A DNA stretch of 31,720 nt from a virus. The position numbers and the translations under genes were made by a program. Location of the stretch: positions 1 through 31,720 of the IMG/VR virus record IMGVR_UViG_3300005095_000164, one strand, 5' to 3'. Each line of letters opens with the position of its first letter. Within the stretch, counting starts at the first letter, position 1. The notes under the pieces were generated by a model that had not been told where the DNA came from, did no database searches, and saw only the letters and a program-made list of their open reading frames with translations. Positions 5,613 to 31,720 of this stretch are shown here, in pieces.

Positions 5613-5622
5613 ATTATACCTA
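5613..5622 (-). promoter_or_regulatory. Leftward promoter of the portal operon
   Basis: On the minus strand, AGGTATAAT (TATAAT at 5618-5613) lies about 45 bp upstream of the portal ATG. It is back to back with the rightward promoter at 5645-5656. Confidence 0.55.
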
Positions 5623-5644
5623 TTAAAGTTTTTAAAGTCAAAAA

Positions 5645-5814: not shown

Positions 5815-5854
5815 CTTTTCATTAACTTTTTATTAATCTTTCGTTAATCTTTTG
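5811..5854. repeat. Four tandem 11-bp repeats (TTAACTTTTCA-like)
   Basis: TTAACTTTTCA, TTAACTTTTTA, TTAATCTTTCG and TTAATCTTTTG follow each other without gaps (5811, 5822, 5833, 5844). One helical turn per copy suggests a protein-binding array or iterons. It is found at R1 only and not at R2 or R3. Confidence 0.7.
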
Positions 5855-5880
5855 TGTTTTTTAGTGATTTTTGATGGTTT

Positions 5881-6060
5881 TGCCACATCCTGCCACATAG
5901 CCTGCCAGTAGGAAACGCCCAGCCACAGGGGCTTTGCGAGGATTCGTGCCACTTCCTGCCACATTCTGCCACATTATGCCAAGAGAATTTTCGATGTGGC
6001 ATAGCGCGCAAACGCCCTTGTAGTGGGGCTTTGCGAGGATTTTCTGCCACATTGCCAGTA
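5881..6060. promoter_or_regulatory. Control region R1, left arm (TGCCA decamers plus two GC hairpins)
   Basis: TGCCA sites begin at 5881, 5891 and 5903, then at 5947, 5957, 5967 and 5977 (exactly 10 bp apart), then 6045 and 6053. An opposite-strand TGTGGCA is at 5995-6001. Two GC-rich hairpins lie between the clusters: AAACGCCC with GGGCTTT (5913-5935) and GCAAACGCCC with GGGCTTTGC (6008-6034). Read outward (leftward), it has the same order of parts as the right arm at 6314-6424, with one extra hairpin and site cluster. Confidence 0.75.
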
Positions 6061-6145
6061 AAATCGCAGAAAATTGATTTATAAATTTTAGGTATTCGTC
6101 GTCTTATATAGTGGTTATCTTGGCTGGACTTTCGTGTGTTTTTTT

Positions 6146-6230
6146 TTCCTGAAAGAAAGGAAGTGGATGGGATTTTCTCTTGACATTGTTATCTTTCTTG
6201 TAAGCTCAACCTTTTCCCTTTTTTAAGGAA
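6146..6230. repeat. Dispersed inverted-repeat element E4 inside R1
   Basis: The ends TTCCTGAAAGAAAGGAAG and CCTTTTTTAAGGAA pair imperfectly around a pyrimidine-rich centre. Closely similar copies sit in the same place in R2 (25382) and R3 (31226). Confidence 0.65.
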
Positions 6231-6231
6231 T

Positions 6232-6281
6232 GCGAAGCGAAGCGTAGCTATTTTATACAATACATTACACACTTGTTACAC
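6232..6281. promoter_or_regulatory. R1 core: GCGAAG repeats and two TTACAC sites
   Basis: GCGAA-GCGAA-GCGTAGC (from 6233) is followed by TTACAC at 6265-6270 and again at 6276-6281, 11 bp apart. TTACAC is close to the half-site of the dyad at 6464-6483 read on the other strand. The same core is found at 25468-25519 and 31309-31359. Confidence 0.65.
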
Positions 6282-6313
6282 TATTTTTTATTTTTTAAAA
6301 ATTATATAAAAGA

Positions 6314-6424
6314 TGTGGCAATGTGGCATAAAAACCCTGCAAATGCCCAGCCACAGGGCGTTTGCGAGCCTTGCCACATCCGAAATTCTCTTGGCATTCA
6401 CTGGCATTATGTGGCAGAATGCCA
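6314..6424. promoter_or_regulatory. Control region R1, right arm
   Basis: Order: TGTGGCA (6314), TGTGGCA (6322), the hairpin GCAAATGCCC/GGGCGTTTGC with 7-base loop AGCCACA (6339-6365), TGCCACAT (6372), then TGGCA at 6392, 6402 and 6412 (period 10) and TGCCA at 6420. It is matched almost part for part by 25553-25663 and 31393-31503. Confidence 0.75.
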
Positions 6425-6463
6425 GATAAAAAGACCTAAAACTGCTCAAATCAGACCCTATAT

Positions 6464-6483
6464 TTGTGTAATACACTACACAA
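6464..6483. promoter_or_regulatory. Dyad TTGTGTA-N6-TACACAA upstream of the tape measure operon promoter
   Basis: Perfect 7+7 inverted repeat with a 6-bp spacer. Its centre is about 60 bp upstream of the expected start of transcription from the promoter at 6497-6526, a position typical for an activator that contacts RNA polymerase. The 6+6 form is kept at 25691-25708 and 31541-31558. Confidence 0.7.
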
Positions 6484-6496
6484 ACAAGCTAAAATT

Positions 6497-6526
6497 TTGC
6501 AATTATAACTACTAATACGCTATAAT
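6497..6526 (+). promoter_or_regulatory. Promoter of the tape measure operon
   Basis: TTGCAA (6497-6502), 18-bp spacer, TATAAT (6521-6526). R3 has the same arrangement at 31573-31601. Confidence 0.7.
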
Positions 6527-10659: not shown

Positions 10660-10838
10660 AAAAAGAAAACTCCTAAAGAAAGAAAAACTCTCAACCACCA
10701 AAAACCCAATCCTTCCCTTTTTAAAGAAAAAAAATAAAAGAAATTTACTACTTTTTACTACTTTTTAGCTATTTAAGCGCTTATCTATCTTAAAAAAGAA
10801 TATAACATATATATATAAAAACACAAAATGGAGAAAAT

Positions 10839-10880
10839 ATGAAAAAAATCACAAAAAATTTTAAAAAATACCCTGTTTAA
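10839..10880 (+). CDS. Array A unit 1 mini-ORF, 13 residues
   Basis: MKKITKNFKKYPV, with GGAG six bases before the ATG. The stop TAA is part of the next unit's -35-like TTTAAGAGC. Too short to assign a function; listed because the unit has a promoter and a ribosome-binding site. Confidence 0.3.
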   Translation: MKKITKNFKKYPV

Positions 10881-10942
10881 GAGCTTCTTGCCAAAAGTTT
10901 TTAATATAACATATATATATAGAAACACAAATAAGGAGCCAA

Positions 10943-11020
10943 ATGGAAAGAAATTTAAAGAAATTTGCATTTTTTTTACTAAAAATACTAATTAAGAGAA
11001 GATTTGGTTATCTTCTGTAA
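10943..11020 (+). CDS. Array A unit 2 mini-ORF, 25 residues
   Basis: The ORF starts MERNLKKFAFFLLKILIKRR and ends FGYLL, with AAGGAG six bases before the ATG. The peptide has a basic start, a hydrophobic middle and then a basic end, which could insert in or lie on a membrane. It is similar in its first ten residues to the products at 11168, 11278 and 16065. The stop TAA overlaps the next unit's TAATATAAC. Confidence 0.4.
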   Translation: MERNLKKFAFFLLKILIKRRFGYLL

Positions 11021-11167
11021 TATAACAATTATATAAGTAGTTAAGAAAGGTGCAAAAATGGAAATTTAAAGAAATTTAAGGTTTTTTTTAAAAATAAGTG
11101 GTTTAGGAGCTTCTTAGTGAAACTTTCCAATATAACATATATATAGAAAGTTTAATAAGGAGTAAAA

Positions 11168-11257
11168 ATGAGAAATTTTAAAAAATTCACTATTTTTTTA
11201 AAAATAGATGGTTTAAGAGCGTTTTCTTTCAAATTTTATAATATAACAATAGTATGA
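11168..11257 (+). CDS. Array A unit 4 mini-ORF, 29 residues
   Basis: It begins MRNFKKFTIFLKIDGLRAF and has AAGGAG before the ATG. The coding stretch runs through the next unit's promoter and ends at a TGA within its leader. The same basic plus hydrophobic start is found in the sibling ORFs. No function can be given. Confidence 0.4.
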   Translation: MRNFKKFTIFLKIDGLRAFSFKFYNITIV

Positions 11258-11277
11258 GAAAGTCAAAAGGAGAAAAT

Positions 11278-11367
11278 ATGAGAAATTTAAAGAAATTGCA
11301 ACTTTTTTTTCAAAAAAAGGCAATTAAGAGCTTCTTTCAAAAAGTTTTTAATATAACAATTATATAG
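11278..11367 (+). CDS. Array A unit 5 mini-ORF, 29 residues
   Basis: It begins MRNLKKLQLFFQKKAIKSFF. AAAGGAG lies eight bases before the ATG. It is nearly the same length and design as unit 4 and also reads through the next promoter (ending N-I-T-I-I, encoded by the AATATAACAATTATA box). Shared ends therefore come from the shared promoter sequence. Confidence 0.4.
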   Translation: MRNLKKLQLFFQKKAIKSFFQKVFNITII

Positions 11368-11388
11368 AAACAAACAAAAGGAGTAAAA

Positions 11389-11607
11389 ATGAAAAAAAAC
11401 CAAGAAAAACTTAAAATTAAACTAACTAAAGTTTTTATTTTTAAAAACTATGTTATAATAAATATAGAAAAGCTGATAAGGACATTGCGGTGTCTTTACC
11501 AGCCCGCTCTTAATAACAAAGAGCGGCAAAGGAAAGCCCGAGGTGCTACCAAAAGGGTAGCTAAAAAAATAAAATCTCAAAAAAATAAAAAAAAGGAATC
11601 ACAATGA
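11389..11607 (+). CDS. Array A unit 6 ORF, 72 residues, overlapping the leader RNA element
   Basis: It starts MKKNQEKLKIKLTKVFIFKN after AAAGGAG and ends in a very basic tail. Its stop codon overlaps the ATG of the 11604 gene by four bases (ATGA), normally a sign of coupled translation. However, its second half (from about 11461) is the structured leader RNA described below, and a second promoter (TATAAT at 11454-11459) lies inside it. The loops of that RNA change length between copies, which does not fit conserved protein coding. It may be a leader peptide whose translation affects RNA folding. Confidence 0.35.
   Translation: MKKNQEKLKIKLTKVFIFKNYVIINIEKLIRTLRCLYQPALNNKERQRKARGATKRVAKKIKSQKNKKKESQ
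11454..11459 (+). promoter_or_regulatory. Internal promoter before leader RNA copy 1
   Basis: TGTTATAAT, with transcription expected to start near 11466, just before the first hairpin of the leader RNA (11477). No clear -35 box. Confidence 0.5.
11477..11561 (+). ncRNA. Structured leader RNA element, copy 1 (three hairpins)
   Basis: Hairpin 1: TAAGGACA pairs with TGTCTTTA around the loop TTGCGG (11477-11498). Hairpin 2: CCGCTCTT/AAGAGCGG with loop AATAACA (11504-11526). A linker CAAAGGAAAG leads to hairpin 3: GCTACC/GGTAGC (11545-11561). The gene start is at 11604. Copy 2 at 12156 has the same three hairpins with compensatory base changes. I do not recognise a known riboswitch class. Confidence 0.7.
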
Positions 11608-12248: not shown

Positions 12249-12321
12249 CAACAAAAGAAATAAAATCTCAAAAAAAACAAAAAGAAAGGATTTATTATGG
12301 AAAAAATTAAAAACCATTTAA
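12226..12321 (+). CDS. Possible 31-residue leader peptide overlapping the helicase start
   Basis: ATG at 12226 lies four bases after GGAAAG. The peptide starts MRRYQWVANKRNKISKKTKR and ends 25 bases inside the helicase gene in another frame. Ribosomes translating it would pass through hairpin 3 of the leader RNA. This would suit control of the helicase by upstream translation, but copies 3 and 4 have no matching ORF. Confidence 0.3.
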   Translation: MRRYQWVANKRNKISKKTKRKDLLWKKLKTI

Positions 12322-14003
12322 CTAAAAATTTAGGCTGGAGTAGTGAAAGAGCTTTTACTTATGCAAGTAAAGCCTTAAAATTTGCAAATATAAAAAACGA
12401 ACAAACTGTAGAGTATGGAACAGGCGCGGATTTTTATGAGGAAATCTATAAGAACACTTGTTCAATTAATTGTGACTACTCTACATTTGTTTTTGCAGAA
12501 TCCAAAACACCAAGATTCGCTTTAACAATATTAGATATAATGAAAAACGAGAATGGAGATATAATAGATGTGACTCTTAAAAGTAACGGTAATGTTACCG
12601 ATTTACACACTAAAGTAAGCGCATTTAAACAATTTGGCGCTCAGAAGTGGCTGAAGAGCCTTGGCAAGAACGCTATGTATAATACAGCGCGCTCAGATTT
12701 TTTACCTGATGAGCCTTTTGGTTACAACCCTAAAACAGGAACTTTTAACTTTTTTGTTAAGGGTCTTGCAGGTAAAAGCTACCAAAAAATGGACATAGAA
12801 TTAAATGAGGATAATATTATTGATTATTTAAAAAGCTATACCCCAGCCATATATCTTATTGCAAAAAATGTTTTTGGAGAAAATTTATTAATTAAATATG
12901 CAATAAATAGATTAGCTTATGTGTTACAAAATAACACAAAAGCGCCTACTGCACTTGTATTAGTTGGAGAACAGGGAACTGGAAAAAGCCTGTGGACCGA
13001 TGTTATAAGTAAAACTTATTTCGGAAAATATGGAAAAATTATGAGTGGCGATGAGATAGTAGGTAGTTTTAGAGATAATCTGATAAACACTACATATGCA
13101 GCGGTGCCAGAATTTTTTACCGATATTAATAACAAAAAGGCAACAGGAGTTCTTAAATCTCTTATTACAGATAAAGAAATCGTGATAAATAGAAAAGGTG
13201 TTACAGCTGTTACAATTAGTAACAATATTACGCTTGATTTGACAACTAACCACATTAACGCTATACACATTGAAGAAACAGATAGACGCTTTTGTATTGC
13301 AGAAAGCCAAAATAAACAGCTGAAAGATTTGGTATGGGCAAATTTAGAAGAGTTTGGTTTGGATAGAGAAAAAAATCGCAAAAATTATATGAAGATTTTT
13401 GTTGAGGAAATTCTTCAAAAGGAGCTTGAAATATTTGGGCGTGTATTATACAGCTATGACGCAAATTTTATGGATATTGTTAATATACCAACAACAAAGG
13501 CAAAACTTGAGGCATTAGCGCAAACAAATAGTGACACTTTTATGCCAGTTTTTTATTTAAATAATGGTAAATATAGCGATTTTACGGAAGTTCTTTTAGA
13601 TAATTTAGCTTACAAAAATGGAGAAGCTGTTGCAAAAAAATATGCCATATCTTTATTAAAAAGGATAAAAAATGAACTGGAAGAAATTGGTGGGCTTACC
13701 AATGCAACTCAAGCGGATATTCTTGAGGCAACAACAAACGGCGATATTTTTATAGGTATAAATGAAAATGGAGAAATGAAGATAGATAATTATACTAAAA
13801 AATATAAAAATGCAAAGTTAGTGGGAGCTAAATTTAAGAATTTACCACAAAAAAGAATTAGTAATAAAAGAGTGAGAATACCTAAAGTTGTTGATTTAGA
13901 AAAATTAGAAAAAGCTATCAATCTCTTGAGTTTAGATAATACTCAAGAAAACCTTGAATACAAGAAAATGCAAGAAGAGTTTGAAAAAATAATAGGCAAG
14001 TAA
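12297..14003 (+). CDS. SF3-type replicative helicase, DUF5906-like
   Basis: A 568-residue protein with AAAGGATTTATT before the ATG. The Walker A motif GEQGTGKS (residues 224-231, Lys230) sits in the context LVLVGEQGTGKSLWTDVIS. It is followed by an acidic Walker B-like AAVPEFF near residue 265 and the sensor/arginine region TTNHINAIHIEETDRRF (ending at residue 332). This arrangement is typical of the helicase part of phage and plasmid primase-helicases (D5/P4 alpha class, DUF5906), which act as hexamers unwinding DNA at the fork. The N-terminal 200 residues do not show a primase motif that I recognise, so the primase may be absent or encoded elsewhere. Only clear replication gene in the window; transcribed with its own leader RNA element. 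Confidence 0.8.
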   Translation: MEKIKNHLTKNLGWSSERAFTYASKALKFANIKNEQTVEYGTGADFYEEIYKNTCSINCDYSTFVFAESKTPRFALTILDIMKNENGDIIDVTLKSNGNVTDLHTKVSAFKQFGAQKWLKSLGKNAMYNTARSDFLPDEPFGYNPKTGTFNFFVKGLAGKSYQKMDIELNEDNIIDYLKSYTPAIYLIAKNVFGENLLIKYAINRLAYVLQNNTKAPTALVLVGEQGTGKSLWTDVISKTYFGKYGKIMSGDEIVGSFRDNLINTTYAAVPEFFTDINNKKATGVLKSLITDKEIVINRKGVTAVTISNNITLDLTTNHINAIHIEETDRRFCIAESQNKQLKDLVWANLEEFGLDREKNRKNYMKIFVEEILQKELEIFGRVLYSYDANFMDIVNIPTTKAKLEALAQTNSDTFMPVFYLNNGKYSDFTEVLLDNLAYKNGEAVAKKYAISLLKRIKNELEEIGGLTNATQADILEATTNGDIFIGINENGEMKIDNYTKKYKNAKLVGAKFKNLPQKRISNKRVRIPKVVDLEKLEKAINLLSLDNTQENLEYKKMQEEFEKIIGK

Positions 14004-15746: not shown

Positions 15747-15836
15747 TAAAAAGTCCACTATTTTTTTCAATTTTAACTACTTTAGAGCTTTTTCTCTCAT
15801 AAATACAATATAACATATATATAGAAAGGAGAAAAA

Positions 15837-15887
15837 ATGAAGAAATTTAGAGAAATTTGCAAAAATTTACTAAAAAAAGGCTATTAA
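15837..15887 (+). CDS. Array B unit 1 mini-ORF, 16 residues
   Basis: MKKFREICKNLLKKGY, with AAAGGAG before the ATG. Its stop TAA is in the next unit's ATTAAGAG box. Very short; function unknown. Confidence 0.3.
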   Translation: MKKFREICKNLLKKGY

Positions 15888-15942
15888 GAGAAGATTTGGC
15901 TATCTACTATAATATAACAATTATATATTAACAAGGAGCTAA

Positions 15943-15993
15943 ATGAAAGAAAAAAAGAAAATTAAAGAAATTGAAGATTTTTTTTTAAAATAA
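15943..15993 (+). CDS. Array B unit 2 mini-ORF, 16 residues
   Basis: MKEKKKIKEIEDFFLK, with AAGGAG before the ATG. Charged rather than hydrophobic, so the peptide is not conserved between units. Confidence 0.3.
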   Translation: MKEKKKIKEIEDFFLK

Positions 15994-16064
15994 GCTGTTT
16001 AAGAGCTTCTTAGCTAAAATTTATAATATAACAATAGTATAGAAATTAACAAAGGAGCTAAAAT

Positions 16065-16139
16065 ATGAAAAATTTAAAGAAATTTGCACTTTTTTTTCAA
16101 AAAAAGGTGTTTAAGAGCGTTTTTCTTCTAACTCTATAA
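16065..16139 (+). CDS. Array B unit 3 mini-ORF, 24 residues
   Basis: It starts MKNLKKFALFFQKKVFKSVF and ends LLTL, with AAAGGAG before the ATG. This is the unit closest to the array A peptides (10943 and 11278): basic start, hydrophobic middle, basic, then hydrophobic end. Its stop codon overlaps the next unit's TATAATATAAC. Confidence 0.4.
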   Translation: MKNLKKFALFFQKKVFKSVFLLTL

Positions 16140-16169
16140 TATAACAATATAAGAAGGAGTTAAAAGAGA

Positions 16170-16271
16170 ATGCCAAAGAAAGAAAAAAAACAAAAACCTT
16201 TTAGGTTGGATATAACCAAAAAAAGTAAAAAATTTGAAGAAATTTTAAATTTTTTACCAAAAAAGGGATAA
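16170..16271 (+). CDS. Array B unit 4 ORF, 33 residues
   Basis: It starts MPKKEKKQKPFRLDITKKSK and ends FEEILNFLPKKG, with AAGAAGGAG upstream. Unlike its siblings it has lost the FALFFQKK core and is charged. TATAACCAAA inside it can pair with TTTGGTTATA at about 16289, and AAAAGGG/CCCTTTT spans its stop codon, so the transcript may fold into a long stem before the next leader hairpin. Confidence 0.4.
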   Translation: MPKKEKKQKPFRLDITKKSKKFEEILNFLPKKG

Positions 16272-18030: not shown

Positions 18031-19212
18031 ATGATAATGAATGATATATCAAGATATAGCTATAATATATCTTTCAAAAAGATAAAGAGAGCTTATATAG
18101 TAAGATTAGAAAAGCTTATGCAAGCGCAAAATTATATATATAATATGGCGCTTAGATTGCATAACAAAGGGTTTAGTAAAGAACAAATAATTGTTTATCT
18201 AAATGAAAAATTTAAAAATATAACTACTAAAGATGGCAAAACTTGTTATGTGTGTAATAAAAGTGTAATACAAACAGCTGTAAACAATTATTTTACTGCA
18301 TATTTTAATTATATAAAAGGAAATAATGCAGGTAGTTTAGAGGGCTTTAGATATGAAAAACCGAAACCAAAAGATATTAATGATTACTCCAACTTTTTTT
18401 ATCTAAATGACTTTCTTTTAAAAGATTTTGGTAGCTTAATATTAAATAATACAAAGAAAAGGATAGAGTTTAAGTTTTTAGATATAAAGCTTTATATTCC
18501 TTTTAAATATAATATAAATAACATTACCAAATTAAGAAGTATAAGATTATATTATAAAGAGGGATATATAAAAGTTATGATTGAAATGTATAAAAATACA
18601 GAAGTTAATATTAATAAATATAAGAGTAAAAAAGTGGTAGCTATTGATATAGGAAGCTCAAATCTTTTAACTTGTTTTTATAATTTTAAAAACCCAGAAA
18701 TTTACACATTCTCTCAATGTTACTTTAAAAAAAAGGAAAACTTGAGATTTGGAGATTTAGAGTATTATAAAAAATATATAATAACTAATATCTTAAACAA
18801 GTTCATTTCTAATATTAAAAAATATGGAGTTAATGTAATTTATATAGGTAATATGATGAGTGCGAAGTATACTAAAGATAAGAAAGATAAGAGCTTTTTT
18901 ATCTCAATTTTCCATTATTACTTATACATTAAGTTAGACAGAATAGCTCGAAAAAATGGTATTATTGTTAAAAGAATTGACGAAAGCTATACGAGTAGAG
19001 CCAGTTTTTTAGACGGAGATAAAATGGAACATTTCTCCTCTTTTTCTGGAAAAAGAATAAAAAGAGACATATATTTGACACAAAATGGTTACTTAATTAA
19101 TGCAGATATAAACGGTGCCGCTAATATATTAAGAAAAATTGATAGTAGATATAAAAATGATTTAACAGAAAAGCTTATATTGCAAAAGCCCAAAAGATTT
19201 TTATTCTCTTAG
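18031..19212 (+). CDS. Stand-alone TnpB-like RuvC protein (IS200/IS605 OrfB family)
   Basis: A 393-residue protein with AAAGGAAGGTAACATA before the ATG. The N-terminal half matches the RNA/DNA-binding part of TnpB. The RuvC parts are: VVAIDIGSSN with Asp206; an expected second block VNVIYIGNMMSAKYTK with no Glu; DESYTSRASFLDGD with Glu318; and LINADINGAANILRK with Asp359. The CxxC zinc finger of typical TnpB is replaced by FSGKRIKRDIY, as in a known TnpB subgroup in which the catalytic Glu appears to have moved to the ESYTS motif. A D-E-D set is therefore present, and RNA-guided cleavage is possible but unproven. No TnpA gene and no clear element ends are visible, so it may be a domesticated phage gene. 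Confidence 0.8.
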   Translation: MIMNDISRYSYNISFKKIKRAYIVRLEKLMQAQNYIYNMALRLHNKGFSKEQIIVYLNEKFKNITTKDGKTCYVCNKSVIQTAVNNYFTAYFNYIKGNNAGSLEGFRYEKPKPKDINDYSNFFYLNDFLLKDFGSLILNNTKKRIEFKFLDIKLYIPFKYNINNITKLRSIRLYYKEGYIKVMIEMYKNTEVNINKYKSKKVVAIDIGSSNLLTCFYNFKNPEIYTFSQCYFKKKENLRFGDLEYYKKYIITNILNKFISNIKKYGVNVIYIGNMMSAKYTKDKKDKSFFISIFHYYLYIKLDRIARKNGIIVKRIDESYTSRASFLDGDKMEHFSSFSGKRIKRDIYLTQNGYLINADINGAANILRKIDSRYKNDLTEKLILQKPKRFLFS

Positions 19213-22194: not shown

Positions 22195-22773
22195 TTATGT
22201 TATGTCGTATATAATGAACTCTGAATCACCTGAATAGAGATTACTGTCTCCCGACCATTCTCCAAGTCTATATTTGATGGCGGATTCGTTTGAACTTCCG
22301 CTGCCGCCCCTAACAAATATTTTTGTGGAGTCGTCTGTATTATTTACGCCTGGAGTAACCAATATTAATGGGTTTACAAAATCTGAGCCATCAGCCTTAG
22401 TTATAGTTATTTTTCTATTTGAATCACTATCTATATCTATATTAATATTATCACTTTTAGCTACAACATTCCAGTTTTGTAGCTTACCAAAAGCGAAAAT
22501 ACTCAGGTTTTGCGGGACTATTGTAGTGCTACGCTTAATCCAATAATTTTCGTTGTCAATAGGGATTATTCCCCTATTATAATTGCGTTTTGACATATAA
22601 ATACTTCCATTGTATGTAACTATGTCATCTTTATTATAAAGTTGGTATGGTAGCCAGCTTGTTCCTGTATAGTTAAGGGATTTTTCAATATCTCTCTCAA
22701 AGTTATCTGTTATATTGTCATATAGACTATCTGCGTTGTTGCAAATTGAAAGTTCACATTGTTTTGTAGTCAT
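22195..22773 (-). CDS. Virion protein with a chitin-binding-like (CBM5/12-type) module, copy 1
   Basis: A 192-residue protein with AAAGGAGAAAAAA before the ATG. Residues about 38-75 hold the pattern W-L-P-Y-Q-x-Y-N-K-D-D-I-V-T-Y-N-G-S-I-Y followed by MSKRNYNRG, then W at the end. This is the aromatic pattern of carbohydrate-binding modules of the CBM5/12 class found in phage fibres and decoration proteins. The C-terminal half is beta-rich with a Gly-Ser turn (VRGGSGSSNE). It is one of three diverged paralogues (with 22791 and 26374) that share this module but have different ends. Probable roles are attachment to surface sugars or capsid/tail decoration. Confidence 0.65.
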   Translation of the reverse strand: MTTKQCELSICNNADSLYDNITDNFERDIEKSLNYTGTSWLPYQLYNKDDIVTYNGSIYMSKRNYNRGIIPIDNENYWIKRSTTIVPQNLSIFAFGKLQNWNVVAKSDNINIDIDSDSNRKITITKADGSDFVNPLILVTPGVNNTDDSTKIFVRGGSGSSNESAIKYRLGEWSGDSNLYSGDSEFIIYDIT

Positions 22774-22790: not shown

Positions 22791-23387
22791 TTAATTAAAT
22801 ACGGTAATATGGAGGTATTTGTAATCGTAATAGTCATATTTTCTACTTTCTATTGTAAAATAAGTAGAAGTTTTTTCGATGATATAGCTACTATACATAT
22901 CTGAATCGTATTTGCCCTGAGATACTAAAACAGTATAGTTAGTATCTGTAATTCCTGCGCCAGAATCCAGATAAAATTTTACCTGCATATTATCGTCATT
23001 TTTTGTGTATTCGTAACTACTTATGTTTATATTAGCTTTAAGCTCGTTTGTATCTTTGTATCTAAAAAAGACAGCCGTGGCAACTGGAACAGCGCTTCCT
23101 TTAGTAATATTAGTTGCAGGAGCCAACTTCCAATCACTACTATCTAAACTACTGGTGTTGTCATCCTTTTGACTTATGTAAATACCTCCATTATATGCAA
23201 CTATATCGCCTTCGGCATATGTTATATCTGGATTATGTTGAGAACAAAGTTGGCGTGTTTGTTCCTTTCTTACTTTATCAATATTATCTACATTTAATTC
23301 ATTTGGAATCGTTAAAGGTCCAAATAAAATGTTATTAAATGAAGTGGCAAGAGATTTTGTAAAAGATAAAAGCTCTTCTAAAGTCAT
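22791..23387 (-). CDS. Virion protein with a chitin-binding-like module, copy 2
   Basis: A 198-residue protein. I choose the ATG at 23387, with AAAGGAATACACA before it, over the one at 23438, which lies upstream of the promoter. The module is at residues about 60-90 (YAEGDIVAYNGGIYISQKDD, then a Ser/Asp turn and a W). The C-terminus is beta-rich and tyrosine-rich (RKYDYYDYKYLHITVF). It has its own promoter, TTGCAA-17-TATAAT, so it can be expressed apart from the capsid genes upstream. Likely a decoration or adhesion protein; the ligand is unknown. Confidence 0.65.
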   Translation of the reverse strand: MTLEELLSFTKSLATSFNNILFGPLTIPNELNVDNIDKVRKEQTRQLCSQHNPDITYAEGDIVAYNGGIYISQKDDNTSSLDSSDWKLAPATNITKGSAVPVATAVFFRYKDTNELKANINISSYEYTKNDDNMQVKFYLDSGAGITDTNYTVLVSQGKYDSDMYSSYIIEKTSTYFTIESRKYDYYDYKYLHITVFN

Positions 23388-23409
23388 TGTGTATTCCTTT
23401 TTTGAATAC

Positions 23410-24604: not shown

Positions 24605-25117
24605 TTAAAATTTTTCAAGATTGAAGTCGCCTGTAAAATCGTCTACTTGAGTTTGATTTTGAGCTGACCAATCTATCTCTTCTTGAGTTTTGTTTTCTTG
24701 ATTTTCCTCTTTTGCGAAAAATAAAGATAGCTCCTCATCTTTTTGAATTTCAGCCAAGGCTTTTTCTGGCTCTACACCGTTTTTCAGATTTTCGATTACT
24801 TTTTCTTTTACTATATTTTTAGAGATTGTGTTAATAAAGTTGTGATTAGCTAATACAGTTTCAGCTTGCATTTCCAAACTTTTTTGTGTAAATTCTTCCT
24901 CTTTTTGAGCTAAAAGATTTTCTTTTTCATTTAAAGCTTCTTGAGTTTCATTTAGTTTAGTTGAAAGTGTATCTCTTTCTTGAGTTAATTGAGTGTTTTG
25001 TTCTGTTAATAGTCTTGCAGAAGTTTCTAAATCACTTATTAAAGGATTTAATTTTTGACCATCTTCCATATTAATAATGTGGTTTTTTAAACTTGCAATT
25101 ACTTGTAGTAAGTCCAT
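24605..25117 (-). CDS. Probable capsid scaffolding protein
   Basis: A 170-residue protein. The ATG at 25117 has AAGGAACTAAAA before it and is chosen over the one at 25204, which lies upstream of the promoter. It is almost entirely helical and acidic, with a long coiled coil (LTEQNTQLTQERDTLSTKLN, then ETQEALNEKENLLAQKEEEF) and an acidic C-terminus ending DFTGDFNLEKF. This is the typical make-up of phage scaffold proteins, which act as an internal core for shell assembly and then leave. It lies immediately upstream of the capsid gene. R2 is directly upstream of it. Confidence 0.75.
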   Translation of the reverse strand: MDLLQVIASLKNHIINMEDGQKLNPLISDLETSARLLTEQNTQLTQERDTLSTKLNETQEALNEKENLLAQKEEEFTQKSLEMQAETVLANHNFINTISKNIVKEKVIENLKNGVEPEKALAEIQKDEELSLFFAKEENQENKTQEEIDWSAQNQTQVDDFTGDFNLEKF

Positions 25118-25150
25118 TTTTAGTTCCTTTTTTTTTAATTTAATATTAGT

Positions 25151-25156: not shown

Positions 25157-25198
25157 GCTTAAAAAGTAGTCAAAGTCAATTAAATTTAAGTGTTTTAC

Positions 25199-25309
25199 TG
25201 GCATTTATGCCGCATAATGCCAGTAAATGCCAAGAGAAAATTCTATGTGGCAGGCGCGCAAAGCCCCTGCACAAGGGCGTTTGCGAGGATTTTATGCCAG
25301 ATGCCACAT
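25199..25309. promoter_or_regulatory. Control region R2, left arm
   Basis: TGGCA at 25199, then TGCCA-type sites at 25208, 25218 and 25228 (exact 10-bp steps), TGTGGCA at 25246, the GC hairpin GCAAAGCCC/GGGCGTTTGC (25258-25284), TGCCA at 25295 and TGCCACAT at 25302. It lacks the second hairpin and outer cluster seen in R1 and R3. Confidence 0.75.
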
Positions 25310-25381
25310 AAATTAGAGGAAAACTGTTTATAAAATTTTTAAGTAGATAGTTAGCTATCAAGTAGCTCGGAGTTTATTTTT

Positions 25382-25467
25382 TTCCTTAAAGAAAGGAAGA
25401 GGATTGATTTCTCCTGCAAGATTGTATCTTTTATTAAAAGCCCCACCTTTTCCCTTTTTTTTAGGAA
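25382..25467. repeat. Dispersed inverted-repeat element E11 inside R2
   Basis: The end TTCCTTAAAGAAAGGAAGAG pairs with the partner end finishing CCTTTTCCC...TTAGGAA. Same place as E4 in R1 and E13 in R3. Confidence 0.65.
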
Positions 25468-25519
25468 CAGCGAAGCGAAGCGTAGCTATTTTATACAATA
25501 TATTACACACTTGTTACAC
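25468..25519. promoter_or_regulatory. R2 core: GCGAAG repeats and two TTACAC sites
   Basis: GCGAAGCGAAGCGTAGC, then TTACAC at 25503-25508 and 25514-25519, 11 bp apart as in R1 and R3. Confidence 0.65.
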
Positions 25520-25552
25520 TATTTTTTTATTTTTAAAAATTATATAAAAGAA

Positions 25553-25663
25553 GTGGCATATGTGGCACAAACACGCGCAAAGCCCCAGTAGATGGTCGTT
25601 TGCAGGCTATGCCACATAGAAAAATCTACTGGCATCTCTTGGCAAAATGTGGCAGAACTGCCA
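25553..25663. promoter_or_regulatory. Control region R2, right arm
   Basis: GTGGCA at 25553, TGTGGCA at 25561, a hairpin with GCAAAGCCCC and a changed partner GGTCGTTTGC (25577-25603), TGCCACAT at 25610, TGGCA at 25630, 25640 and 25650, and TGCCA at 25659. It is kept although no operon starts on this side. Confidence 0.75.
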
Positions 25664-25690
25664 AGAGAAACATAAAAAAATGACGACTAA

Positions 25691-25708
25691 TGTGTAATAC
25701 ACTACACA
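25691..25708. promoter_or_regulatory. Dyad TGTGTA-N6-TACACA at R2
   Basis: Same dyad as in R1 and R3, but here only 10 bp from the 3' end of the XhlA-like gene, with no TTGCAA/TATAAT promoter after it. Confidence 0.65.
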
Positions 25709-25717
25709 AACAGAAGG

Positions 25718-26053
25718 TTATTTATGAGTATAAAAGTAATTAGAAACAAAAACAATAACTGCAATAGTAATACTAACTGCAATTTTCCAAAAATTGGCTC
25801 CTATTGTTTCTATCTTTTTTTCAATATTACTAACACGCATATCTAAAGGAAGCGCTTCTTTGTTTTCTTCTTTTAGAACAGAAACATCTTTTTCTAAATG
25901 AGCTATTTTTTCTTTTACAATATGAATTTCGCTATTTTGGTTACGAATAATCTTGTTTAGAGAAGTATAGTCCTCTTTTAATCTTTCAACTATTGTTGCA
26001 GTTCTTTCTGTATTTATAAGAATTTTTTCTATTTTATCATTTTGACTTGACAT
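25718..26053 (-). CDS. XhlA-like coiled-coil membrane protein (lysis)
   Basis: A 111-residue protein. The ATG at 26053, with GGGAGTATTG before it, is preferred over the one at 26095 inside the preceding gene. It has a long coiled coil (NDKIEKILINTERTATIVER, through IAHLEKDVSVLKEENKE) and a C-terminal membrane span (FWKIAVSITIAVIVFVSNYF). This is the layout of XhlA/haemolysin-type proteins, which act with a holin in phage lysis. It follows the holin-like gene. The stop codon faces R2. The call is from topology and context. Confidence 0.6.
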   Translation of the reverse strand: MSSQNDKIEKILINTERTATIVERLKEDYTSLNKIIRNQNSEIHIVKEKIAHLEKDVSVLKEENKEALPLDMRVSNIEKKIETIGANFWKIAVSITIAVIVFVSNYFYTHK

Positions 26054-26373: not shown

Positions 26374-26982
26374 TTATAGCGCAAAAAACAACAAATGTAT
26401 CTGGTTTGGATTAATTTTGGTTTCGTTGTTTTTTTGAAAGCCTTGAACGAAATAATTTGATTCTTCTTCTTCACGCCAATACATAATAATCCAGTTGCCA
26501 TCATTAGACTCATCTATATAATAGGCGGTTGGAATCACGATATATCCATTATCATAATTGTTTTTTAATGTAAATTTGTATAAGCCGTCCTGAAGTTTTT
26601 CTACATTATCAATAATATTGCCCGTGTCTTTTATAATTCCATTGTCTTTATCCCAAAGAACTATGTCGGCTCCAATTACCTCGCCTCCACCATCTGTGTT
26701 ACTACTCGCCTGCCAAGCCGCGGCGTTATCTGGCGATTCTGTATTGTTATCAATTTTTGAAAGGTAAATATCCCCGTTATATGTAACTAAATCGCCCTTC
26801 TGGTATATTTCTGTGTCTTTGTATTTTGAGCCTAATTTATCTTTTTTCTCACCTATCACAGTTTTATAAGTTTTTACTCCGTCAATTTCTGAATCATCAG
26901 TGTTAGTAAGAAGGTTTTTTAGCCAAGTAGAAGCGCTTTCTAATTTATTTTTACAAGCTTCAAAGTCAATTATATAAGCCAT
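26374..26982 (-). CDS. Virion protein with a chitin-binding-like module, copy 3
   Basis: A 202-residue protein with AAAGGAATAAGA before the ATG and a TTGCAA-17-TATAAT promoter. The module is at residues about 60-90: IYQKGDLVTYNGDIYLSKID, then NNTESPDNAAAW. The following part (GADIVLWDKDNGIIKDTGN) and the C-terminal strands differ from the two other copies. It lies after the tail tube gene, so it may be a tail decoration or a fibre-like adhesin. The three copies diverged in their ends but kept the module, which suggests selection for sugar binding. Confidence 0.65.
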   Translation of the reverse strand: MAYIIDFEACKNKLESASTWLKNLLTNTDDSEIDGVKTYKTVIGEKKDKLGSKYKDTEIYQKGDLVTYNGDIYLSKIDNNTESPDNAAAWQASSNTDGGGEVIGADIVLWDKDNGIIKDTGNIIDNVEKLQDGLYKFTLKNNYDNGYIVIPTAYYIDESNDGNWIIMYWREEEESNYFVQGFQKNNETKINPNQIHLLFFAL

Positions 26983-30916: not shown

Positions 30917-30939
30917 TTGGTGTCCTTTTTTTAGTTGAT

Positions 30940-30945
30940 ATTATA
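30940..30945 (-). promoter_or_regulatory. Promoter of the transglycosylase gene
   Basis: AAGCTATAATATC on the minus strand, 24 bases before the ATG at 30916. R3 begins 27 bp further upstream. Confidence 0.55.
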
Positions 30946-30971
30946 GCTTTTTTAGTGTTTTTAGTGGGAAG

Positions 30972-31150
30972 TGCCGCATTGTGCCACATAGCGTGCCAGT
31001 GCCAAAGCCCCAGTGGTAGGGCGTTTGCGAGCTTTTATGCCGCGTTTTGCCACTTCCTGCCACATTCTGCCAAGAGAAAAAAAGATGTGGCAGGCGCGCA
31101 AAGCCCCATCAGCTGGGCGTTTGCGAGGAATCTCTGCCACATTGCCGCAT
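30972..31150. promoter_or_regulatory. Control region R3, left arm
   Basis: TGCCR-type sites at 30972, 30982 and 30994; a GC hairpin CAAAGCCC/GGGCGTTTG (31003-31027); sites at 31038, 31048, 31058 and 31068, all 10 bp apart; TGTGGCA at 31086; a second hairpin GCAAAGCCCC/GGGCGTTTGC with the loop core ATCAGCT (31098-31124); TGCCACAT at 31135 and TGCCGCAT at 31143. Same parts in the same order as the R1 left arm. Confidence 0.75.
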
Positions 31151-31225
31151 ATTTTGGATTTTTTGTTTTATGTTTTTTTACATTTACTGCCATTGTATGG
31201 GCATATCGGTTTTTCTGTATTTTTT

Positions 31226-31308
31226 TTCCTGAAAGAAAGGAAGAGGTTATTGTTTCTCTTAGATTGTTATCTTTCTTTAAGCTTGAACTCTTTCTCTTTT
31301 TTAAGGAA
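31226..31308. repeat. Dispersed inverted-repeat element E13 inside R3
   Basis: The ends TTCCTGAAAGAAAGGAAGAG and CTCTTTTTTAAGGAA pair imperfectly around a pyrimidine-rich centre, as in E4 and E11. Confidence 0.65.
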
Positions 31309-31359
31309 CAGCGAAGCGAAGCGTAGCTATATATACAATATATTACACACTTGTTACAC
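31309..31359. promoter_or_regulatory. R3 core: GCGAAG repeats and two TTACAC sites
   Basis: GCGAAGCGAAGCGTAGC, then TTACAC at 31343-31348 and 31354-31359, 11 bp apart. Confidence 0.65.
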
Positions 31360-31392
31360 TATTTTTTTATTTTTAAAAATTATATAAAAGAA

Positions 31393-31503
31393 GTGGCATA
31401 TGTGGCACAAACACGCGCAAAACCCCATCAGCTGGGCGTTTGCGAGCCTTGCCACATACGAAATTCTCTTGGCATCTCTTGGCAAAATGTGGCATAACTG
31501 CCA
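31393..31503. promoter_or_regulatory. Control region R3, right arm
   Basis: GTGGCA at 31393, TGTGGCA at 31401, the hairpin GCAAAACCCC/GGGCGTTTGC with loop core ATCAGCT (31417-31443), TGCCACAT at 31450, TGGCA at 31470, 31480 and 31490, and TGCCA at 31499. Spacings are the same as in the right arms of R1 and R2. Confidence 0.75.
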
Positions 31504-31540
31504 GTAGAAAACTTCAAAAACACCAAAAAACAATACCTAA

Positions 31541-31558
31541 TGTGTAATATACTACACA
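31541..31558. promoter_or_regulatory. Dyad TGTGTA-N6-TACACA at R3
   Basis: Perfect 6+6 dyad ending 14 bp before the -35 box of the rightward promoter, the same geometry as at R1. Confidence 0.7.
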
Positions 31559-31572
31559 AACAAGCTTAAACT

Positions 31573-31601
31573 TTGCAATTTTAATACTAATAAGTTATAA
31601 T
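31573..31601 (+). promoter_or_regulatory. Rightward promoter after R3
   Basis: TTGCAA (31573-31578), 17-bp spacer, TATAAT (31596-31601). An AAAAAGGAATAAACT leader and the ATG at 31627 follow. Confidence 0.7.
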
Positions 31602-31626: not shown

Positions 31627-31720
31627 TGCCAAAAATTTTAATACAAGAGTTCAACAAGGAATTAAAACATTACAATATCCAAGAGAACGAAACCCCTTAT
31701 TCTTTTTTAAGGAAAAAATA
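31627..31720 (+). CDS. Start of a rightward gene cut by the window end (possible N-terminus of a J-like tail protein)
   Basis: The product starts MPKILIQEFNKELKHYNI after AAAAAGGAATAAACT. Only about 30 codons are visible and I am not certain that the frame stays open to the last base. The I-x-I-Q-x-F-N-x-E start resembles the small beta-grasp domain that begins many J-like tail-tip proteins, and the J-like gene at the other window end lacks its start. If the genome is circular or longer, both may be one gene. Confidence 0.4.

Follow-up and report, generated by a model that had tools for sequence, protein, structure and literature searches.

Triplicated inverted TGCCA iteron modules with inserted 27-bp dyads: possible control regions of structural operons in a phage record

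The late activators Alt and Ltr of the temperate phages TP901-1 and phi13, respectively, bind direct repeats upstream of late promoters (PMC13123087). Cooperative binding to repeats spaced one helical turn apart is known; PMC7498355 describes it together with the Apl/Cox-type sites of phages 186 and P2, direct repeats of this spacing that lie between promoters, and with directionality factors that bind repeats one turn apart. According to PMC7581432, the origin of SaPIs directly follows the helicase gene, and iterons of 5 nt are used by the SCC helicase Cch2. The dif/pdif sites have inverted arms around a more variable centre in an 11-6-11 arrangement (PMC6449649). Here we describe three regions, R1, R2 and R3, that resemble these known kinds of iteron regions. 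They are located in the window, by which we mean the whole IMG/VR virus record IMGVR_UViG_3300005095_000164 with its 31,720 bases and 31% G+C. Their combination of an inserted 27-bp dyad, inverted modules and triplication was not found described in the open-licence PMC literature or in the collections that we searched.

The record is classed as linear and is possibly incomplete. Its end (31690-31720) falls within a terminator-like repeat (family D11, which resembles others in the window) and truncates an open reading frame, so some sequence is probably missing between the two ends. Nitratiruptor phages NrS-1 to NrS-3 head the match list of the tape measure protein, and the D5/VapE-type helicase is related to the C-terminal part of the NrS-1 polymerase; together, these matches make a Campylobacterota host likely. 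Elsewhere in the window, a TnpB/Cas12f-like gene is present at 18031-19212, and no TnpA was found. Three proteins (22195-22773, 22791-23390 and 26374-26982) have in common a weak segment resembling carbohydrate-binding module 5/12 that scores below the curated cut-off.

Table 1. Coordinates of the R regions and of features in and around them
Feature	Position	Strand	Remarks
R1	5839..6510	none	intergenic; two inverted TGCCA modules round a conserved core, divergent genes on either side
R2	25190..25735	none	R1-like, without outer left dyad and without rightward promoter or gene
R3	30930..31600	none	R1-like
Dyad R1a	5911..5937	+	GGAAACGCCC-AGCCACA-GGGGCTTTGC, core flipped
Dyad R1b	6008..6034	+	GCAAACGCCC-TTGTAGT-GGGGCTTTGC, core flipped
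Dyad R1c	6339..6365	+	GCAAATGCCC-AGCCACA-GGGCGTTTGC; stretch named by the first-pass annotation
Dyad R2a	25258..25284	+	
Dyad R2b	25577..25603	+	
Dyad R3a	31002..31028	+	
Dyad R3b	31098..31124	+	
Dyad R3c	31417..31443	+	
R1 left iteron module	5881..6057	none	10 TGCCA/TGGCA sites
R1 right iteron module	6316..6424	none	7 sites; inverted copy of R1 left module
R2 left iteron module	25199..25306	none	6 sites
R2 right iteron module	25554..25663	none	7 sites
R3 left iteron module	30982..31192	none	9 sites
R3 right iteron module	31394..31503	none	7 sites
Sigma-70-like promoter TTGCAA-18-TATAAT	6497..6526	+	before gene 6549; consensus match only
Sigma-70-like promoter TTGCAA-17-TATAAT	31573-31601		R3 counterpart of 6497..6526; consensus match only
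Sigma-70-like promoter TTGACT-17-TATAAT	5613..5641	-	before portal gene; consensus match only
R2 counterpart of TTGACT-17-TATAAT	25179-25151		before gene 24605-25120; consensus match only
Palindrome TGTGTA-N6-TACACA	6465..6482	+	between R1 right module and rightward promoter; copies at 25691-25708 and 31541-31558
D5/VapE-type helicase (DUF5906)	12297..14003	+	no R region adjacent

Repeat families and alignments identify R1, R2 and R3 (Table 1) as diverged direct copies of one another. In each, two oppositely oriented modules flank a core, the right part of which is near-identical in all three regions. When the left and right outer arrays were compared, inverted matching exceeded direct matching throughout (26 vs 11 in R1, 15 vs 11 in R2 and 19 vs 8 in R3). 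The regions occupy three of the largest intergenic gaps, and their 1,666 bases hold 46 of the window's 101 TGCCA/TGGCA sites where 5.3 would be expected. As in Apl/Cox-type sites with their spacing of 10-11 bp, TGCCA neighbours on the same strand lie 10 bp apart in 13 cases; further spacings are 6, 7, 8, 9 and 12 bp. All six modules contain an inverted TGCCA pair at 20 bp and a second inverted pair that encloses a dyad, at a distance of 47 bp in four cases and 48 bp in two. These are the six b/c elements; for the extra a elements the enclosing distance is 44 bp (R1a) and 48 bp (R3a). The constant distance between dyads and TGCCA sites asserted by the first-pass annotation is thus nearly constant. 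As a control, we searched 83 loci (1.05 Mb) for any pentamer with three copies at 10-bp spacing and differing spacers and found none, compared to six such TGCCA triples in the window.

The dyads follow the consensus GCAAAnnCCC-N7-GGGnnTTTGC, and all eight copies are exactly 27 bp long (10-7-10) with no or one mismatch. A search that allowed up to three mismatches returned these eight, compared to 0.08 on average in 100 dinucleotide-shuffled sequences, and bore out the earlier count of three elements in R1, two in R2 and three in R3. The variety of loops that had been noted was likewise recovered: AGCCACA is found in R1a and R1c, ATCAGCT in R3b and R3c and four others once each, and both pairs with identical loops sit inside a single R region. 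However, the constant stem proposed at first, GCAAAnGCCC with GGGCnTTTGC, is literally matched only once, at dyad R1c; arm positions 6, 7, 21 and 22 vary. Over seven pairs of corresponding copies, 108 of 112 cells are identical in the arms, 11 of 28 at the nn positions and 17 of 49 in the loop, in copies that are paralogues and whose agreement is therefore not independent. The contrast between constant arm and variable loop holds in these numbers, but variation also reaches into the arms.

This pattern is to be expected if a protein dimer binds the site and leaves the centre and some positions of each half-site unread, but not if a stem is maintained for its pairing. In the initial interpretation the hairpins themselves were thought to be functional, as cruciforms or single-strand structures, which we now regard as improbable. 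It also named the loop as a candidate address tag; neither a recombinase among the proteins scanned nor a related genome with the element was found. The outer and inner pairs are perfect in most copies, identical loops are confined to one R region, and an inversion of the core with unflipped flanks, described below, points to hairpin-driven strand switching. Nevertheless, positions 6, 7, 21 and 22 in the middle of the arms are unpaired in seven of the eight copies, and R1a, R2b and R3a have one further arm mismatch each. R1c alone has a stem that pairs throughout, one of its pairs being T-G. No covarying pair and hence no compensatory change was detected in the eight sequences, and none of 500 column shuffles paired less than the real alignment. 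As DNA, the hairpins are predicted to fold weakly (-3.2 to -8.7 kcal/mol) and unevenly, ranging from R1c (-8.7 kcal/mol) to R1a (-3.6 kcal/mol) and R2b (-3.2 kcal/mol), and the fold of R1a is at the level of shuffled sequence (z 0.15). Mismatched nn positions, the lack of compensatory change and uneven folding together disfavour a stem kept for pairing, and a hairpin stem under selection is not supported.

Predicted RNA folds are stronger than those of DNA and reach -15.6 kcal/mol. Together with leftward promoter-like hexamers at the inner edge of each right module, this could indicate that the hairpins are RNA elements in the 5' leaders of structural transcripts. We give this idea the least credence: the dyads matched no RNA family described in Rfam, the absence of covariation applies here as well, and the sense-strand form differs between operons, so that no one RNA structure is kept.

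The single-base bulge that had been reported to move between the stem arms is more aptly seen as the result of an inverted 17-bp core in R1a and R1b, which match R3a and R2a, respectively, at 14 of 17 positions when flipped. Two types of dyad arm occur, GCAAACGCCC and GCAAAGCCCC. In R1a and R1b the left arm is GCAAACGCCC and the right arm the complement of GCAAAGCCCC; in R2a, R2b, R3a and R3b this order is reversed. R1a, R2b and R3a each depart from these types by a single arm mismatch, and R1c and R3c are single-base variants. Reverse-complemented versus direct, the inner 17 bp match at 14 vs 9 positions for R1a-R3a, 14 vs 7 for R1b-R2a and 12 vs 8 for R1b-R3b, where six of the 17 positions (CCC and GGG) match in either orientation. 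The 20 flanking bases, on the other hand, match directly rather than flipped (14 vs 2, 14 vs 6 and 13 vs 8 for the same pairs). The loop alone gives weaker support, with 4 vs 3, 4 vs 1 and 2 vs 2 of its 7 positions matching flipped versus direct. A single core inversion accounts for four coordinated changes, whereas point mutation would need four events. Strand switching at the hairpin is the likely route for this inversion, which suggests that the palindromes did fold or template-switch at some time.

As the best explanation, which we hold tentatively and as possible rather than probable, the dyads could be dimer-type protein sites flanked by iterons that are helically phased and act cooperatively, the whole forming control regions of late operons. 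A dimeric protein would read GCAAA and CCC of each half-site, while the nn positions and the 7-bp centre would remain unread and drift freely. A second, oligomeric protein would fill the TGCCA iterons cooperatively, the iterons being one helical turn apart and the dyad at a fixed phase to them. The bidirectional control region, triplicated as R1-R3, would govern the structural (late) operons at its outer ends, and the capacity to form a hairpin would be a by-product of the dyad that probably caused the core inversion through template switching. The operator reading is favoured by the difference in identity between arms, nn positions and loop, by nn positions that never covary and by the fixed spacing of the iterons.

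The pattern of the dyads is also what a recombinase core would look like. In that case, they would be core sites of a tyrosine recombinase with 10-bp arms and a 7-bp overlap, and the iterons would be arm sites or sites of a directionality factor, in line with directionality factors that bind repeats one turn apart (PMC7498355). Conserved inverted arms around a more variable centre are shared with dif/pdif (PMC6449649). In contrast to the latter, the organization is 10-7-10 rather than 11-6-11, the dyads are embedded in iterons, and no recombinase or integrase was found among the window proteins scanned. Unlike at Apl/Cox-type sites, no integrase, repressor or attP was found in this possibly incomplete record. 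In three other loci (L060, L084 and L094), repressor-like (CI-like) and integrase-like genes, named by eye, are enclosed by a pair of inverted TGCCA arrays that lie about 1.68 kb from each other, suggesting that the switch region and the attachment site there may be acted on by the same protein. A recombinase would not be expected to invert its own core, and exchange among eight sites would scramble the structural operons. We regard recombinase cores as very improbable. Just as slight is the chance of a more far-reaching version, in which the eight 10-7-10 sites would serve recombination or strand exchange with interchangeable 7-bp overlaps as addresses: sites with identical centres may pair, the iterons would give directionality, and the late operons would be reshuffled by exchange or by core inversion among the sites.

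Returning to the favoured reading of the R regions as late-operon control regions, their arms head five structural transcription units (R1-, R1+, R2-, R3-, R3+). Leftward of R1 lie the portal and MuF-like genes, and rightward genes 6549 and 6998 followed by the tape measure gene. Leftward of R2 come gene 24605-25120, the gene of a 341-aa protein that occupies the capsid position but matched no family, and the large terminase gene. For R3, the leftward unit contains the transglycosylase, DUF1833 and tail-tube genes and the rightward unit a gene at 31627 that is truncated by the record end. From these products we infer that the structural units are late genes. The helicase/TnpB block (10.6-19.2 kb) has no R region, and R2, which has no rightward gene, also lacks the TTGCAA-TATAAT promoter seen in R1 and R3. 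Both the position of the R arms at these units and the joint absence of gene and promoter in R2 favour a role in transcription. On the left side of R3 only TATAAT is present, at 30945. The palindrome TGTGTA-N6-TACACA was found three times, always in the right arm of an R region and without mismatch, in a search that allowed up to two mismatches and for which 0.95 copies were expected at that level.

Several direct repeats upstream of structural-gene promoters, which here are consensus matches only, are a feature shared with the Alt/Ltr type (PMC13123087). In contrast to these systems, the modules are inverted, contain a 27-bp dyad and occur in three copies. The repeats of TP901-1 are located at -76 to -32, whereas the nearest iteron to the predicted start, determined by hand, is at about -55 for R2-, -105 for R3+, -110 for R1+ and -275 for R1-. 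This range argues against late control, as a simple activator site would be expected at a more constant distance. Promoter-like matches in the R regions are barely above those in shuffles (8 vs 4.4, sd 2.4; 3 vs 2.6; 4 vs 2.4), and the position of the R regions in large intergenic gaps could reflect tolerance. Furthermore, no regulator or activator gene was identified in the window, where most early proteins are without family match; a 165-aa protein yielded a predicted structure with a pLDDT of 40. Sigma-54 sites were also considered and dropped by eye for their wrong spacing. Two tandem arrays of units of about 110 bp lie at 10750-11390 and 15760-16270; each has a conserved AATATAACATATATATAGAAA-type element, AGGAG, a start codon and an open reading frame of about 16-37 codons, and they look like serial promoters with tiny related genes.

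In the main rival explanation, which we regard as unlikely but as a serious competitor, the D5/VapE-type helicase of the phage would read the iterons of the R regions in the manner of a replication origin, as happens in SaPI and SCC elements. Short iterons and a phage-encoded helicase of this type are common to both (PMC7581432). The main support for this rival comes from an unrelated phage (record G010, loci L029/L036) that has the iteron 8-mer TGCCACAT in common with the window, in four forward copies (538-569) and six reverse copies (700-820). These convergent arrays (538-830) enclose a core of 77% AT compared to 59% in the genome, and directly follow the end of a VapE helicase gene (Pfam 1.7e-55), the partner of which, a possible primase gene, lies upstream. 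By analogy, they are likely to be a SaPI/SCC-type replication origin. An AT-rich stretch between iteron sets is typical of such origins. The convergent arrangement was found only in this record, in L057 and in the window among 224 sources examined, and the helicase class encoded in the window is related to the VapE of G010.

However, the R regions are present in three copies in 31.7 kb, and none of them is beside the helicase gene, from which the nearest, R1, is about 5.8 kb away. Between the outer arrays they are not richer in AT than the genome (59-63% vs 69%), so that they have no AT-rich core overall, and unlike SaPI/SCC origins they have dyads added, which G010 (L036) does not have. A BLASTP comparison of the helicases of the window and G010 gave no significant match (E 0.27). 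The structurally known helicase that comes closest is part of the NrS-1 polymerase, but neither NrS-1 nor NrS-3 contains TGCCA arrays. The priming motif of NrS-1, which has two copies there according to its paper and no arrays, was dropped as a candidate. If the R regions are origins, this phage would carry three.

TGCCA arrays are also found in other phages. A three-fold pattern occurred in 11 stretches, and a four-fold pattern at 10-bp spacing in 111 other viral stretches (79 distinct 35-mers, 18 pure tandem repeats). Among the 116 neighbouring proteins scanned of 266 chosen were methyltransferases, CII-type activators, terminases, repressors and ParB-like proteins. As these neighbours show no single function, we lowered the idea that TGCCA arrays mark VapE-helicase origins. 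Four AT-rich phages (L078, L103, L115 and L145) have such arrays, which are possible packaging sites; in L078, L103 and L145 a homologue of the large terminase subunit lies nearby. For the R regions, a function as packaging sites for a small terminase seems quite improbable. Four-fold TGCCA arrays do lie near terminase genes in other phages, for example L056, L078 and L103, and three of the 116 neighbouring proteins belong to the terminase small subunit family. However, the neighbours elsewhere are mixed, and the R regions occur three times in one genome. Moreover, none of the window's proteins was recognized as a small terminase; a 131-aa candidate had no family match and no significant fold match (model pLDDT 69).

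The element itself appears confined to this record in the collections searched. Eight of 231 loci contained the exact dyad, all of them pieces of this record, and none of the 223 other loci did. The 25-bp module pattern TGCCAAGAGAA-N6-ATGTGGCA is present five times in the window and was absent from the genome contigs collection. Terminase, capsid-like, portal and helicase queries of the viral contigs collection together with an alignment query, which on the genome side gave one genome locus, returned only distant terminase relatives, with 36-44% identity among the 80 kept of 554. None of the 81 loci of these relatives had an R-like array; L160 and L163 among them have six TGCCA/TGGCA sites within 200 bases of apparently coding sequence. 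A blastn search with R3 against phages and plasmids gave short, weak matches only. Seven viral stretches with a hairpin arm and TGCCA pattern were judged to be chance on individual inspection. Loose dyads near arrays, found in 61 of 98 loci (window included) compared to 38% in mononucleotide shuffles, are too loose for any meaning.

TGCCA at 10-bp spacing is thus found next to different genes in many phages that are not related to each other, and no function should be assigned from the motif alone. The core inversion in R1 is a clean, small-scale example of how a palindrome can drive an inversion in a phage genome. If the R regions are indeed late-control regions, a single, triplicated bidirectional module would serve all structural operons of this phage, and the proteins that read it would be findable by a simple pull-down.
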